Shown: in pieces, positions 7,991 to 18,474 of the stretch
Layout of the letters: every line of letters begins with the position of its first letter
How positions within the stretch are numbered: the first letter of the stretch is position 1
Assembly (NCBI GenBank): GCA_009842675.1
Contig: VYEX01000081.1
Coordinates: 1-64,000 of the forward strand
DNA length: 64,000 bases
Direction of reading: 5' to 3'
DNA from: Acidimicrobiia bacterium
GTDB lineage: Bacteria; Actinomycetota; Acidimicrobiia; Acidimicrobiales; Bin134
Translations under genes and position numbers: made by a program
Notes under the pieces: generated by a model
The model's database searches: none
Seen by the model: only the letters and a program-made list of their open reading frames with translations
Told to the model about the DNA's origin: nothing

Positions 7991-9715
7991 TCAGGGACCG
8001 GCGGCGGTCACCGTGTCGGTGTCGCGGCCCGAGCGGATCACGGTGCCGGGGCGGGCTTCGGTGAGCACTCCGGCCCGCTGGGTCTCTACCCCGTTGACCA
8101 AGACGTGCTCGATGCCCTCAGCACCGCCAGTCAACCGCCACCCCCCACCGGGCATGTCCCAAGCGGTGGTCACCGGAGCTTTGGTTAGGCGGGCGGGGTC
8201 GAACACCACGATGTCGGCGCACCAGCCTTCGGCCAGCCGTCCCCGGCCCCGCAGGCCGTAGTGGCGGGCGGGGCGATCGGTCACCAGGTTCACCGCCTGC
8301 TCCAGGCTCAACAGTCCCCGATCCCGCACCGTGTCGCCCACCAGCGCCGAGGAGCAGCCCCAGGTCATCATCATGTCCAGATGGGCCCCGGCGTCGGAGC
8401 CGCCAGCCAGCACCCGCGTGTCGCCCAGCATCTCGGTCCGAATTTTCCACGACTCATCGTCATCGCCCACCACCGGTGGTCCGAATCCGGTCATCAGGTC
8501 GTCTTCCAGGGCGATGTCGCACATCACGTCGAAAGGATGCTGGCCCCGTTCAGCGGCCAGTTCGCCAACGTTGCGGCCTACCAGCGCCTCTAGCGAGGGA
8601 GAGGACACGTCCACCACCGTGGTCTCAGCCCACCGCACCCAAGTGCGATGAGGAGCCTGCGCCGCGCCGTCGAGCAGCCGCTGGCGCACCTCAGGGCGGG
8701 CCAGAGCCTCGGCCTTTGCCCCGGGGTCCAAGTGCATGATCTCGGCCCAATCGAGCAGGGTGTCGTACAGCACGCCGGTAGCAAAGTTCAAACGCATCTG
8801 CATCACGTCGGGCAGCAGCAGGCCGACCACGGTGGCGCCCCGCTGTCGGGCATGGTCGGCGGAACCCAAGCGGTTCTCCCGGTAGGCATCCTCGCCGGGC
8901 CGCACGTTGAGCAGGTTCCAGTTCAAGGGCCGGTCGGCGGCCAGCACCATAGCCGTCATCAACTCGTAGATCTCTGGCGCCCAGATCGGGTTGATGCTGG
9001 GAATGAGCTCCAAGGTGGTTCCGGGGTGATCCCGGCAGACTCCGGCCAGCGCCACCATCTCGGCGTTGGTGGCCGCTCGCGACGGCACTGGATCGCCGTG
9101 GTGGTCGTTGTGGGCCGCCGCCTTGGTGGAGGAGAACCCCAGTCCTCCCTCGGCCAGGCTCTGGCCCAGCAGGGCCTTCATGGCCTCGATCTGCTCTTCG
9201 GTGGCTACCTCGCTCACCGATGCCGACCCCATGACCAGGCGGCGGATAGTGCTGTGGCCCACCAAGAATCCGGCGTTGACCCCCAGCCCACTGCCCTCCA
9301 GTCGATCCAGCCATGATCCGAACGAAGACCACCCGAAGTCCAAACCGGCTTCCAGCGACTCGGTGGGCATGCCCTCCACCCGGGCCAGCATCCGCATCAC
9401 ATAGTCGGCCTCGTCGGGAACCATCGGAGCGATGGTGAACCCGCAGTTCCCGCCAATGGCGGTGGTGATCCCGTGCAATGACGACGGAGTCAGGTGGGGA
9501 TCCCACAGCACTTGGGCGTCGTAGTGGGTGTGCACGTCGATGAACCCGGGAGCCACCGCCAAACCGTCGGCATCGATCTCCTGGCGGGCCGGCTCATCCG
9601 ACCGCCCGATCGACACGATGCGCCCGTCTTGCACGCCAACGTCGGCCACTCGACCCGGCACTCCAGTGCCGTCCACCACCATCCCGCCCCGAATAACACA
9701 ATCCAACATCGCCAT
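7991..9715 (-). CDS. Amidohydrolase family 3 / N-acyl-D-amino-acid deacylase-like
   Basis: A 574-residue protein of the D-aminoacylase/dihydroorotase-like amidohydrolases. It starts with the typical small beta domain (DCVIRGGMVVDGTG), followed by FIDVHTHYDAQVLWDP, in which HTHYD supplies two metal ligands, and GNCGFTIAP. GGSDAGAHLD gives the late catalytic Asp region. The family removes acyl groups from N-acyl-D-amino acids or hydrolyses related amides. The ATG at 9715 leads directly into the first strand. It lies divergently from the galactopyranose mutase gene, with 99 bases between. Confidence 0.88.
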   Translation of the reverse strand: MAMLDCVIRGGMVVDGTGVPGRVADVGVQDGRIVSIGRSDEPARQEIDADGLAVAPGFIDVHTHYDAQVLWDPHLTPSSLHGITTAIGGNCGFTIAPMVPDEADYVMRMLARVEGMPTESLEAGLDFGWSSFGSWLDRLEGSGLGVNAGFLVGHSTIRRLVMGSASVSEVATEEQIEAMKALLGQSLAEGGLGFSSTKAAAHNDHHGDPVPSRAATNAEMVALAGVCRDHPGTTLELIPSINPIWAPEIYELMTAMVLAADRPLNWNLLNVRPGEDAYRENRLGSADHARQRGATVVGLLLPDVMQMRLNFATGVLYDTLLDWAEIMHLDPGAKAEALARPEVRQRLLDGAAQAPHRTWVRWAETTVVDVSSPSLEALVGRNVGELAAERGQHPFDVMCDIALEDDLMTGFGPPVVGDDDESWKIRTEMLGDTRVLAGGSDAGAHLDMMMTWGCSSALVGDTVRDRGLLSLEQAVNLVTDRPARHYGLRGRGRLAEGWCADIVVFDPARLTKAPVTTAWDMPGGGWRLTGGAEGIEHVLVNGVETQRAGVLTEARPGTVIRSGRDTDTVTAAGP

Positions 9716-9814
9716 ACCCCTGCGCTATCGTCGTTTTGCGGGCCGCTGAGCCCAACCCCCCTACCGTATCCGAGACGCTCGACTGGAGTTCCCGATGTCT
9801 GCGAGGCCCACCCC

Positions 9815-10951
9815 TTGAGGCGCAGCATCGCCATCGTGGGAGCCGGGTGGACGGGGGCGGTGGCCGGACGCCTGCTCACCGACGCTGGATTCGCGGTAGA
9901 GGTAATGGAGAAAACCGAGGTGGTGGGCGGACACTCTCGGGCCGAGACCATGGATGGGGTGGTGTACGAGCCCAACGGCGCCCACATCTTTCACACCTCA
10001 AACGAGACGGTGAACGAGTTCGTGAACGCCCACGGCCTCACCCGGCCCTACGACCACAAGGTGCTCACCGAGGTATATCTATCGCCCGATGATGACGACC
10101 ATGAGAGCCGCCTGCTGTCCTGGCCTCCCCAAGTCTCAGAGCTGAGAGAGCTGCCCATCTGGCCGAGGGTGGAGCAAGAGTTGGCCGCCCTCCCTTCGCA
10201 GCCCACCGGCGACAATTTCGAGGACTACGTGGTGTCGATGATGGGCCGCACCCTCTACGACCTGTTCATCCGGGACTACACCGCCAAGCAGTGGGGCCGC
10301 CCGGCCACCGAGCTGTCGGCCCGATTCGCCCCCAAGCGCGTGGAACTGCGCCATGACGGCCACCGAGGACTGTTCCGAGACCGATGGCAGTACTTCCCTC
10401 CCAACGGCATCAACGAAGTAATCGAGTCGGTGCTGTCCCCCGTGACCGTCACTCTGAACACCGAGATCACCATCGACGACGCCGGCCGACTCAACCAGGA
10501 CTACGACGCAGTGATCGTCACCGCCGCGCTGGACGACTTCGCCCGCTGCCCCGGCGAGCTGGAGTGGCGGGGCATCGAGATGGTGTCCCAATACCACCCC
10601 ACCGCCGAGTCCGGCGGCGTTGTCACCCCGGCCTATGTGACCAATCGCCCGTCGATGCGGGTGCCCTATACCCGCACGGTGGAGACCAAGCACGCCACCG
10701 GACAGCAGATCGGGGGCACGGTGGTCAGCGAAGAGATGCCCGGCGCCCCCCGGCGCCACTACCCGGTGCTGACTGCCGACGGAGCCAACGAGCGCCGCAA
10801 CGCCGAGTTGGCCGAGAAGGTCGCCGGCTGCTTCGACATCCCGGTGTACTTCGCCGGGCGGCTGGCCACCTATCGCTATATCAACCAGGACGAGGCCATC
10901 GCCGACGCCATGGCGGTGGCCGACCGAGTGGCCGAAGAGCTCTCGGGATAG
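9815..10951 (+). CDS. glf: UDP-galactopyranose mutase-like FAD protein
   Basis: A protein of about 378 residues that resembles UDP-galactopyranose mutase, which interconverts UDP-Galp and UDP-Galf with reduced FAD and feeds galactofuranose into cell-wall glycans. The N-terminus IAIVGAGWTGAVAGRLL is the dinucleotide-binding fold. EPNGAHIFHTSNE, FIRDYTAKQWG and YRYINQDEAI are mutase-type segments. The frame has no ATG here; TTG at 9815, five codons before the Rossmann glycine motif, is the best start. The next gene begins 6 bases after its stop. No galactan synthesis genes are nearby, so the biological role is less sure than the family. Confidence 0.82.
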   Translation: MRRSIAIVGAGWTGAVAGRLLTDAGFAVEVMEKTEVVGGHSRAETMDGVVYEPNGAHIFHTSNETVNEFVNAHGLTRPYDHKVLTEVYLSPDDDDHESRLLSWPPQVSELRELPIWPRVEQELAALPSQPTGDNFEDYVVSMMGRTLYDLFIRDYTAKQWGRPATELSARFAPKRVELRHDGHRGLFRDRWQYFPPNGINEVIESVLSPVTVTLNTEITIDDAGRLNQDYDAVIVTAALDDFARCPGELEWRGIEMVSQYHPTAESGGVVTPAYVTNRPSMRVPYTRTVETKHATGQQIGGTVVSEEMPGAPRRHYPVLTADGANERRNAELAEKVAGCFDIPVYFAGRLATYRYINQDEAIADAMAVADRVAEELSG

Positions 10952-15081: not shown

Positions 15082-15882
15082 CTACCAGGTGATGCTCTGG
15101 CCGGCGTTGGCCCGCAGGATCTGGCCGGTCACAAAGCGGGAGGCGTCGGAGGCCAAGAACCAGATCAGGTTGGCCTGGTCAGACGCCTCGCACACCTCGC
15201 CCAGCGGAGAGCGATCCCGCATCAACTTGAGATAGCTGTCCATCTCCACAGCGTCGACATTGCCCTCGGAATCCCTCAGATGGCCCCCAACGAAGTTGGT
15301 GAGCGTGAACCCGGGGGCGATGGTGTTTACCCGAATTCCGCTAGGCCCCGCCTCAACGGCCAGCGACTGGGTGAGCATCGCCACCGCTGCCTTGGTTGCG
15401 GCGTACACCGACAAACCGCCCACTGGAGTGTTGATGGCAGTGGCCGACACATTGATGATCGAACCCGACCCCTGGGGGGCCATTACCCGCATGGCAGCCT
15501 GGCAGCCAAAGAACACGCCCTTGAAGTTGATGGCCACCACCCGGTCGAACTCGGCCTCGCTCACATCCACCACATCGCCGTAGCTGCCCACCCCGGCCAC
15601 ATTGGCCATCACGTCCAACCGGCCGAATTCGTCTGTTGCCGCGGCCACCAGAGCGCTCACCTGCTCAGCCTGGGTGGTATCCACCGATTTAGCCACCGCC
15701 CGGCCACCGCCGTCAACGATGCGGTCCCTGGTTCGGGCTGCTCCCTCACCGTCGATGTCGCCCAGCACCACCGCGGCCCCCGCCGCGGCCAGTGTCTCCG
15801 CAGCCGCCTCGCCGATGCCGCTGGCCGCCCCGGTGATGCACGCCACTCGCCCGCTCAGGTCGAACACGCCAAGCCCTTTCAT
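15082..15882 (-). CDS. SDR family NAD(P)-dependent oxidoreductase
   Basis: A 266-residue classical short-chain dehydrogenase. Cofactor motif TGAASGIG lies near residue 17, the Asp of LGDIDG suggests NAD preference, the structural motif reads NVAGVG, catalytic Ser is in INVSAT, and the Tyr-Lys pair is YAATK. It oxidises or reduces a hydroxyl/keto group of an unknown substrate. The ATG at 15882 was chosen; the frame runs further upstream, but that part reads into the region before the PAC2 gene and looks like a shadow. It is co-directional with the 2Fe-2S subunit just downstream, which may hint at a linked oxidation pathway. Confidence 0.9.
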   Translation of the reverse strand: MKGLGVFDLSGRVACITGAASGIGEAAAETLAAAGAAVVLGDIDGEGAARTRDRIVDGGGRAVAKSVDTTQAEQVSALVAAATDEFGRLDVMANVAGVGSYGDVVDVSEAEFDRVVAINFKGVFFGCQAAMRVMAPQGSGSIINVSATAINTPVGGLSVYAATKAAVAMLTQSLAVEAGPSGIRVNTIAPGFTLTNFVGGHLRDSEGNVDAVEMDSYLKLMRDRSPLGEVCEASDQANLIWFLASDASRFVTGQILRANAGQSITW

Positions 15883-16003
15883 AAAACCAGTTTGTCTTAC
15901 CGTTATCTGGCTTGCCCCACCGCCGCGCCGGTGCGGGCTGCCATACGCAGGTAGCCACATCAAACGGCTTGCCATCCATCGGCGCGAGTGTGAGTCTTGG
16001 GCA
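15883..16003. promoter_or_regulatory. Divergent intergenic region between SDR and PAC2 gene
   Basis: About 120 bases separate the outward-reading SDR and PAC2 genes, so promoters for both are expected here. No convincing sigma-factor boxes, operator palindrome or strong Shine-Dalgarno sequence was recognised by eye. Confidence 0.35.
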
Positions 16004-16861
16004 ATGGCGGTGGAACTGGAATGGCTGGTGGACCAACCCACCCAATCCAACCCGGTCATGGTGGTGGCATTGGAGGGGCTATTCGACGCGGCTGACGCGG
16101 CCACCACCGGAGTGCGCTTGATAAAGGAAAGCGCCAACGGCGTCGAGCCGCTGGCCCGCATCGACCCCGAGGGGTTCTTCAACTTCCAGGACCGCCGCCC
16201 TGAGGTCCGACTGGACGACAACGGCCGGCGGGTCATCGACTGGCCGGTCACCGAGGTCGACGCGGTAGAGCGCTACGGCGCCAAACACCCCCTTGTGGTG
16301 GTGGACGGCGTGGAGCCCCACCTGCGGTGGCGGACATTCGCCGACTACCTGGTTGAGGTGGCCACCGAGTGCCAGGCCGGCCTAGTGGTCACGCTCGGGG
16401 CCATGGTCGGCCTCGCGCCCCACACCCGGCCGCTGGGGGTGGTGGGCAGCTCCACCAATGTCGAGTTGGCCCGCATGTTCGGCTTAGGCCGCCCCACCTA
16501 TGAGGGCCCGACCGGCCTGGTGGGTGCACTCCACGACGCATTGGACCAGGCCCACATCCCGGTAATCTCGTTGCGGGTGTCGGTGCCCCACTACGTGCCC
16601 GGACCGCCCAATCCCGAAGCCACCCGGTCGCTACTCAAGCGATTCGAGCTGATCACCGGCATCATCACCGACCACGAGGAGCTCGACGAAGCCGCGGCGG
16701 CTTGGCGAGAGCGGGTGGACACCGCCGTGGCCGGCGACGACGACCTCAAGAACTACGTCGCCCAGCTGGAGCGTCAGATCGATGAGGCCGACGACCTGCT
16801 CCCCACCGGCGACGACCTAGCCACGCAGTTCGAAGCCTTCCTCCGCGACCCCTGGAAATAA
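16004..16861 (+). CDS. PAC2 family protein
   Basis: A 285-residue protein of the PAC2 (proteasome assembly chaperone-like) family, common in actinobacteria. Recognisable parts are the N-terminal strand pattern PVMVVALEGLFDAADAA, the middle segment VVTLGAMVGLAPHTRP and the stretch ISLRVSVPHYVPGPPNPEA, followed by a helical acidic C-terminus. The role in bacteria is not settled; a link to the actinobacterial proteasome or to ATP-grasp partners has been suggested for relatives. It converges on the selenoprotein gene, the two stop codons being only 4 bases apart. The ATG at 16004 is the first before the conserved strand. Confidence 0.85.
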   Translation: MAVELEWLVDQPTQSNPVMVVALEGLFDAADAATTGVRLIKESANGVEPLARIDPEGFFNFQDRRPEVRLDDNGRRVIDWPVTEVDAVERYGAKHPLVVVDGVEPHLRWRTFADYLVEVATECQAGLVVTLGAMVGLAPHTRPLGVVGSSTNVELARMFGLGRPTYEGPTGLVGALHDALDQAHIPVISLRVSVPHYVPGPPNPEATRSLLKRFELITGIITDHEELDEAAAAWRERVDTAVAGDDDLKNYVAQLERQIDEADDLLPTGDDLATQFEAFLRDPWK

Positions 16862-16865
16862 GGTT

Positions 16866-17399
16866 CTACGCCGCGGTCAAGCGGGCGAGGGCCTCGTCGA
16901 TGATGGTGGTGGCCAGCTTCTGGAGGGATTCGTCGTCGAGGGTGGAGACGGGGTGGGGGACAGTGACTGCGGGGTAGGAGGCCATGCCTACGGTGGGGGC
17001 GAACGACTCGACCACCGGCTCAAACGGCTCGGTGATCAGCAGCATCGACGGGATGCCCCTGGACTCCATGTGAACGGCGTCGTGCAGACTGCACGCCGTG
17101 CAGGCCCCTCAATCGCCCAATCCGGAGATGATGAGGTGGGAGCGGGCAGCCAGCATCTCGGCGTCGTCAGCGTCGATGGGCTTGCCGGCGGCCGATTTGG
17201 AGTGGACCACGATGTCGGCCACCGGAAGGCGTTCCCGCAGGCCCTCGGCCACGTAAGTGAGAAGTTCTTTGGCGTTGTTCTTGGCGTTGTCGATCACCCC
17301 AATGACCACGGGCTCAGCGGGCATCTGGCGAGGCGCCATGGCAACTTCTTCAACATGGGCTTCTTCGTAGACTGGGGACAACACCGTTACTGACGACAC
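16866..17399 (-). CDS. UGSC-type selenoprotein with in-frame UGA (selenocysteine at residue 97)
   Basis: Read through the TGA at 17111-17109, the frame from GTG 17399 encodes 177 residues matching the UGSC (seleno)protein family along its whole length. It has an early strand VVIGVIDNAKNNAKELL, then LIISGLGD-U-GACTACSLHD with Sec97, Cys100 and Cys103, then the MESRGIPSMLLITEPFEP and VPHP segments that follow the motif in that family. The family is known from genomes that use selenium and often shows GDUGSC; here Ser is Ala. Read as ordinary genes it would split into a 96-residue piece and a 67-residue piece with conserved sequence between them lost. AAGGAGGAG precedes the GTG at good spacing. 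A thiol/selenol redox role is inferred. Confidence 0.9.
17074..17099 (-). promoter_or_regulatory. Bacterial SECIS-like hairpin just downstream of the UGA
   Basis: On the minus strand the 7-base arms ACGGCGT (17099-17093) and ACGCCGT (17080-17074) pair perfectly. Inside them GCA and TGC pair to leave a GTC loop at 17089-17087, with a 3-base ACG bulge below the upper stem. The loop begins with G and starts 19 bases after the UGA, inside the 16-37 base distance known for bacterial SECIS elements. A competing smaller hairpin (CTGCAC-GGC-GTGCAG) overlaps it. It should bind SelB to direct selenocysteine insertion. Confidence 0.75.
17109..17111 (-). other. UGA codon predicted to encode selenocysteine
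   Basis: The TGA lies exactly where the UGSC family has selenocysteine (or Cys in non-seleno homologues). Reading continues in the same frame for a further 80 codons to a TAG that lies 4 bases from the convergent PAC2 stop. Residues on both sides are conserved family segments, so a true stop is unlikely. Confidence 0.88.
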
Positions 17400-17413
17400 G
17401 AGAACTCCTCCTT
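17400..17413 (-). promoter_or_regulatory. Strong ribosome-binding site of the selenoprotein gene
   Basis: AAGGAGG (17413-17407, minus strand) lies 7 bases before the GTG at 17399 and overlaps by one base the TGA of the upstream gene. This fixes the GTG as the start of the selenoprotein and couples its translation to the partner gene. Confidence 0.75.
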
Positions 17414-18474
17414 CACGCCAAGGGTAGCCCGTCGCCGGGTGCGGCCACCTTCCGGGTGACCGCCACCGAGTGAACCGTCGGCGCCCAGTTGGGGATATAG
17501 GCCGACCATCCTGCCCCCGCGCTGCCTGCGGTAACCAGGAAGATGTCGTGGGGTCCTCGAACCGTGTTGAGCTTGCCGTCGGCATCGGGGGTCATGTCGT
17601 TTTGAGCCGTGAACTCCTGCAATACCCCGCCCGCCGCCAAGTGCTCGGGGGTCACCCTGCTGTGCTCGGCCAAGAACTCCCGCACCATGGGCTTGGTCCA
17701 GCCCGCCTCGGCCAGGATTTGGCGGTGCTCGGGGCCGATCACCAGCAACACCTGGTGTTTCTTGGCCACCGCATAGGTGGCCGGGCCGGTCATGGCGGAG
17801 GCAAACGTCAACAAGATCCCCTCGGGATCGCCGTTGAGGTGGTTGGCCACCTGGTGAGGGCTTTCGGAGGGGAACATGGTCACCGTTGTGTCCTCCTCGC
17901 CGTAGCCCAGCTCCACCCGAAGCGGCGGCCATCCCTCGGGCGGGGATTCTTCGGCCACCAGCATGGTGTATTTGCCAGGGTGGCCCAGCGATGATCCGTC
18001 GAGGGTGTCCGACCGGGCCCCCAACACGTTCATGGCCACCAGCCGCAGGGCCCGGCCCACCGTGGCGTTGGCCCGATAGCCCGGACCCAACGCATTGCGC
18101 CCGGAGTTGAACCCCAGTTCGGCCACCAGGGGACCGCTCACCACCGCACAGAGCGCGGCGCCGCCAGTGCTGGTCACCACCGTGTGGCACCCGAAGCGGG
18201 GGTCGAACATGGCCGACAAACCGGCCAGCACCACCGGGAAGTACTCGGGGCGACAGCCGGCCATCACCGCATTGACGGCCGCTTTCTCCGCGGTCACCTC
18301 TCGCGACCGCTCAGGCACACTGCCCACTATGTCGGCCGGGCCCAAACCGGCATGGTCCAGCATCGCCTGCACCCGCTCCGGGGTGGGCGGAATCACCGGC
18401 AGTCCGTCGGTCCACCCCCGGTCGAAGAACTCCTCTTGGACATCCCCCGCATCGAGCACCAACTCCTGAGCCAT
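17413..18474 (-). CDS. Conserved protein of unknown function, operon partner of the UGSC selenoprotein
   Basis: A 353-residue protein. The N-terminus contains FFDRGWTDGLPVIPPTPERV, a pattern seen in actinobacterial and marine proteins found with UGSC selenoproteins. Other features are a Cys in MAGCRPEYFPVV, FGCHTVV with a second Cys, STGGAALCAVVSGP, and a Gly-rich end GSAGAGWSAYIPNW. No signal peptide or membrane segment is obvious. Its stop lies 13 bases before the selenoprotein start, so the two form a tight operon and probably act together, perhaps as substrate-binding and redox parts of one enzyme; that is inference. I cannot assign a reaction. Confidence 0.8.
   Translation of the reverse strand: MAQELVLDAGDVQEEFFDRGWTDGLPVIPPTPERVQAMLDHAGLGPADIVGSVPERSREVTAEKAAVNAVMAGCRPEYFPVVLAGLSAMFDPRFGCHTVVTSTGGAALCAVVSGPLVAELGFNSGRNALGPGYRANATVGRALRLVAMNVLGARSDTLDGSSLGHPGKYTMLVAEESPPEGWPPLRVELGYGEEDTTVTMFPSESPHQVANHLNGDPEGILLTFASAMTGPATYAVAKKHQVLLVIGPEHRQILAEAGWTKPMVREFLAEHSRVTPEHLAAGGVLQEFTAQNDMTPDADGKLNTVRGPHDIFLVTAGSAGAGWSAYIPNWAPTVHSVAVTRKVAAPGDGLPLA

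Follow-up and report, generated by a model that had tools for sequence, protein, structure and literature searches.

The locus examined here raises the question of whether an in-frame TGA ends a short protein or is read as selenocysteine (Sec). The window, by which we mean the whole 64,000-nt stretch analyzed, belongs to contig C71 in the 3.39-Mb, 95.5% complete genome of an uncultured sponge-associated actinobacterium. The preliminary description of this DNA had noted that a TGA at 17109-17111 interrupts a continuous frame; this was confirmed, and the strand, which had been left out, is the minus strand, a forward-strand reading of the coordinates being wrong. From a GTG start (17399-17397), the frame runs through 96 codons, the UGA at codon 97 (17111-17109), 80 further codons, and a TAG (16868-16866), giving a 177-aa product from a gene spanning 16866-17399 on the minus strand. 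The TAG lies 4 nt from the stop, at 16861, of a convergent plus-strand PAC2-family gene (15602-16861, assigned by profile match and relevant only as context), as had been reported. On the selenoprotein gene's own strand, 13 nt upstream, is a gene encoding a 353-aa protein (17413-18474, minus strand), which we call the partner. Direct reading of the sequence places a ribosome-binding site, AGGAGG, at 17407-17412 (minus strand), right behind the partner's stop codon, and because of this placement and the 13-nt gap the two genes look like one transcript. The expectation that a gene caller would return a 96-residue stub and miss the rest holds only in part: the stub length hinges on the GTG at 17399, the longest standard ORF upstream of the UGA starting at 17585 and having 158 aa, and the existence of the NCBIfam model NF041046 means that such genes are not invisible to every caller.

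When the read-through product was searched as a single protein, its two halves together matched the UGSC family, in agreement with the original proposal. The Pfam UGSC profile PF24696 aligned with residues 6-175, across the UGA, at 156.5 bits (E 1e-45; cut-off 25), and the NCBIfam UGSC_fam profile NF041046 aligned with residues 32-175 at 125.4 bits, barely over its cut-off of 125. UGSC entered the literature as a selenoprotein family with the 2008 Global Ocean Sampling (GOS) survey, whose UGSC entries comprise 255 Sec and 21 Cys forms (PMC2398784), and it is listed again in the catalog of a 2026 review (PMC13188914). The novelty attached earlier to a hidden selenoprotein was thus overstated, and the window gene adds one member to a known family. 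The texts searched internally for UGSC give no function for it, and at the level of titles and abstracts UGSC and glycine reductase co-occur only in selenoproteome and metalloproteome surveys and reviews. In common with the family it has Sec with Cys at +3 and a Sec insertion (SECIS) hairpin, and its profile match spans the whole length and exceeds both cut-offs, but its motif (GD-U-GACTACSLHD) reads UGAC rather than UGSC. In an alignment of 31 family sequences, the columns of C97 (Sec or Cys), G98, and C100 are invariant, so that the UxxC arrangement is present; position +2 is Ala here, and the same Ser/Ala swap occurs in other sequences matching the family profile, namely loci L082 and L083 and the Cys form L072. 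Ser at +2 supplies the S of the family name, and the curated criterion is the profile. UGAC is a clade trait, common to the genus and to L134-L138, L082, and L083, and the window gene belongs to the UGAC clade of a known but functionally unexplained selenoprotein family. The earlier characterization as a UGAC variant retaining Cys+3 therefore stands, but Cys+6 is no addition of this gene, being found in 18 of the 31 aligned members. A sister branch (L140 and L142) carries UAAC, one residue further from UGSC than UGAC.

UGSC genes were detected in 150 of the 298 genomes of the order; almost all among the matches listed carry one TGA, and it falls at the same codon in every translated relative locus. 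For the nearest loci, 27 were fetched from named genomes using the partner protein, and the 26 that reach the UGSC gene take in chromosomes OX638350.1 and OX638344.1 and Candidatus Poriferisocius aerobius; by these matches the host falls within or close to the genus of the latter. In all 26 the UGA is kept and the second half behind it is conserved, which bears out the claim that the 80 downstream codons are in frame and conserved, and none ends at the UGA position. Among nine orthologs from the genus, dN/dS was 0.106 before the UGA and 0.108 after it, and third codon positions were the most variable on both sides. If codon 97 were a real stop the second half would drift, yet it is as constrained as the first.

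The sel genes and tRNA-Sec, named in the preliminary description as a check on the host, are all present in its genome. A tRNA-Sec with anticodon UCA (ARAGORN) scored 67.5 bits, over its cut-off, at position 2603 of contig C74; selA (403 bits) and selB (269 bits) adjoin each other on the same contig; and selD (359 bits), on contig C39, has an in-frame TGA of its own in a Sec-type context (SHGAGUAGKLGPTE). The host encodes six UGSC genes, the window gene and five paralogs, each with exactly one in-frame TGA.

Across the order, the 150 genomes with UGSC divide into 137 in which selA is strongly matched and 13 in which it is not. Five genomes of high completeness (G053, G155, G180, and G246, of one genus, and G255) have neither selA nor a selB match over the cut-off, and every UGSC copy in them is stop-free; the translated copies of G155 and G246 are Cys forms. 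Cys also occupies the Sec column in L040/L072 (CGAC) and in L073-L075. Genomes with a TGA-bearing UGSC gene and neither selA nor selB are mostly fragmented assemblies (G001, G063, G170, and G197), and in G282, where a lone C-terminal selB match accompanies the TGA-bearing gene, the pattern suggests a gap. Fragmentation does not account for one exception: G242 and G261, of one genus and 94-96% complete, retain the UGA-containing UGSC gene and lack selA, selB above the cut-off, and the partner. G242 (L027/L077) also retains a hairpin that has the usual loop; the G261 locus is L107. Two small-genome relatives that share a genus with each other, G035 and G085 (1.8 and 2.2 Mb), have kept selA and selB, and the UGSC gene and partner are absent from them.

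A bacterial-type SECIS hairpin is predicted at 17078-17098 (minus strand), with a nine-pair stem, eight of whose pairs form in the window gene, and an apical loop GUC (17089-17087) 19 nt after the UGA. In 42 distinct Sec sequences we scored pairing against a single template, in which nine stem pairs enclose a loop of three bases at 19 nt from the UGA. The loop was GUG, GUC, GUU, or GUA in 40 of them and CCG in the other two. Mean pairing was 7.93 of 9, against 5.40 expected from synonymous recodings of the same amino acids, and fell to 1.3-4.5 when the partner strand was slid by 1 to 4; four Cys homologs had 4.5 pairs, against 4.2 expected from synonymous recoding. These figures are descriptive, as the sequences are related and not independent. 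Two-sided changes (CG/GC and GC/AT) show covariation within the stem, stem position 20/26 being CG in 34 sequences and GC in 8. Four loci (L057, L058, L077, and L079) fit the template poorly or have a shorter stem. Single-sequence RNA folding z-scores for the hairpin were not significant, and the comparative test was used. A loose version of the hairpin rule was also passed by 16 other TGAs of the window lying in frames open on both sides, so the rule alone is not specific; the five of these that were checked gave no Pfam family match when read through, and we therefore claim no second selenoprotein in the window. The stem is built from the codons of roughly residues +4 to +11 (TACSLHDA), and where Trp (UGG) replaces Cys (UGC) at +6, the opposite stem arm changes to match. 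Residues in this stretch, Cys+6 among them, are thus partly set by RNA structure, and their conservation alone is no safe sign of catalysis.

On this comparative sequence evidence, the UGA is almost certainly decoded as selenocysteine by the host Sec machinery, under the direction of the hairpin that begins its loop 19 nt further on within the reading frame. That it is a real stop, leaving a 96-aa truncated protein or a decaying pseudogene, is how the standard code would read it, and the loss of Sec in some fused relatives points the same way; equal purifying selection on both sides, retention of the UGA by all nearest orthologs, covariation in the hairpin, a complete Sec machinery, and a Cys/Sec exchange that tracks selA and selB make this highly improbable. 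An error of sequencing or assembly would need only a single base, the difference between UGC or UGU and UGA, but the same UGA recurs in many independent assemblies, the two chromosomes named above included, and in all six host paralogs, which leaves such an error scarcely credible.

The partner is the second constant feature of the locus. The 353-aa protein has no sequence match in Pfam, NCBIfam, or the PDB, but its family, of roughly 350 residues, occurs in 148 of the 298 genomes and together with UGSC in 146 (Fisher 9e-78); 146 of the 152 genomes with either gene hold both. It adjoins UGSC at all six paralogous loci of the host and in nearly every relative examined, and in Sporomusa and Vibrio the two are fused in single proteins. 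The Sec/Cys site of these fusions reads GDMGT or ADMGT, and because both Sec and Cys have been lost, some relatives evidently do not work by the Sec/Cys chemistry considered below. A fusion of UGSC with a conserved domain termed Unknown_1 appears in the UGSC material of the 2008 ocean survey (PMC2398784) and resembles the Sporomusa and Vibrio fusions; Unknown_1 is likely the partner domain. Comparisons of the partner with UGSC itself, with PF07355, and with GrdE (probability 0.2) gave no relationship, and no partner was found in viral contigs. The literature searched, which excluded subscription papers and supplements, describes neither the partner nor a relation of UGSC to GrdB.

The gene neighborhoods differ among relatives. 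The order is trxB, trxA, partner, UGSC in Arthrobacter and partner, UGSC, trxB in Roseovarius, and in Variovorax the partner has trxB three genes upstream of it; none was detected next to the window pair, nor close to its counterparts in Natrinema, Halorientalis, Halalkalicoccus, and Neorhizobium. Culturable strains with Cys versions of the pair are Arthrobacter sp. ERGS1:01 and Roseovarius sp. THAF8. The paralogous pairs of the host sit among genes for SDRs, enoyl-CoA hydratases, CoA-transferases, flavin monooxygenases, and transporters, and the fused forms neighbor aconitase X.

A remote relation connects UGSC with component B of glycine and proline reductases. Profile comparison of UGSC with PF07355 (GrdB/PrdB) gave a probability of 93.7 and an E value of 2e-7, with Sec column aligned on Sec column. 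Repeating it directly with hhalign gave 90.3 and 1.5e-6, or 81.6 and 1.1e-5 with Sec masked, and the best of 100 column-shuffled controls reached 6e-4, the next 0.04. The window protein itself has no direct PF07355 match at E 1e-3, matching only PF24696. The PF07355 proteins of the order, one of them in the host, are likewise encoded with an in-frame UGA and share the local sequence pattern. Shared with GrdB (of glycine, sarcosine, and betaine reductase) and PrdB are the placement of Sec and the succession of a strand, U-x-x-C/G, a helix, E..GIPT or GIPS, and a later P-H/Y-P. The window protein differs in having no N-terminal GRDB part, and GrdE (PF09338) is absent from the host genome, the partner not being GrdE-like. 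The comparison is supportive but remote, and suggests that the two Sec domains are distantly related. New here are the near-obligate partner, this remote GrdB tie, and the thioredoxin reductase neighbors in some relatives.

The association of the two genes is established genetically; from the GrdB profile relation, the thioredoxin neighbors, and the catabolic gene neighborhoods we infer a mechanism and a substrate role, namely a thioredoxin-fed two-component reductase acting on catabolic substrates. The UGSC protein would be the Sec subunit and the product of the upstream gene the other subunit of one enzyme. The selenol of U97, at a helix start and with the resolving Cys at +3, would attack a substrate bound by the partner or jointly with it, and the selenenyl-sulfide formed would be re-reduced by thioredoxin, as in component B of glycine and proline reductase; the six host pairs would serve different catabolic substrates. 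Taken as a whole, Sec insertion together with a thioredoxin-fed selenol reductase of GrdB-like chemistry, built with the 353-aa partner and with paralog-specific substrates, seems to us somewhat better than an even bet. More tentatively, and with the balance tipping slightly against it, UGSC and partner may form a separate class of thioredoxin-driven selenium reductases, tied to glycine and proline reductase through nothing but the Sec domain. The class would be widespread and duplicated among actinobacteria of the order and would have Cys versions in haloarchaea and in other bacteria, and each pair would act on a catabolic substrate of its own.

Two other functions were weighed against the selenol reductase. 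UGSC could be a general thiol-redox selenoprotein, a peroxiredoxin- or thioredoxin-like antioxidant with the partner as client or scaffold; the UxxC motif fits this, as does the likely Trx-like fold assigned to UGSC in the 2008 GOS paper (PMC2398784). The UGSC structure, predicted with confidence (pLDDT 94.6), has strands alternating with helices and U97 at a helix start, and its matches among solved structures (Foldseek/VIA) are flavodoxin-, receiver- or response-regulator-, and PurE-like, none outstanding; the thioredoxin fold is not among the matches shown, although such a list cannot exclude it. These matches, the position of the paralogous pairs among catabolic genes, and GrdB/PrdB as the best profile relation found make an antioxidant role rather unlikely. 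A Sec enzyme that performs no reductive cleavage, for example an isomerase or lyase that depends on selenium or a metal and is formed together with the partner, would accord with aconitase X beside the fused forms and with the partner's best Foldseek matches, to class I fumarate hydratases and to folds of the cyanuric acid hydrolase type; these matches are weak, however, and VIA-align gave a Z of about 5 and an rmsd above 5 A, which is not significant, so that we regard such an enzyme as distinctly improbable. The near-constant, unnamed partner gene makes the function of the selenoprotein testable.

Several further observations concern plasmids and the host. A UGSC gene of the Sec type (UGSCTSWSVH, with 8 of 9 stem pairs) is found on plasmid p2-T1 of Acidovorax sp. 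T1 (L151, about 8800-10078), close to a partner match over which the plasmid's gene table has no CDS. On the Halorientalis and Halalkalicoccus plasmids (L187 and L188), the UGSC gene is flanked on both sides by a gene for a hypothetical protein; with two partner matches in each record, the partner may be present in duplicate. Also in the host genome is a PF07355 gene that resembles PrdB and whose frame contains a UGA (LTPVUPLCTRTV; L163:1225-1674, on contig C17 of the host assembly, G000, near 150299-150718, minus strand), and with selD and the six UGSC genes this brings its apparent selenoprotein genes to at least eight.
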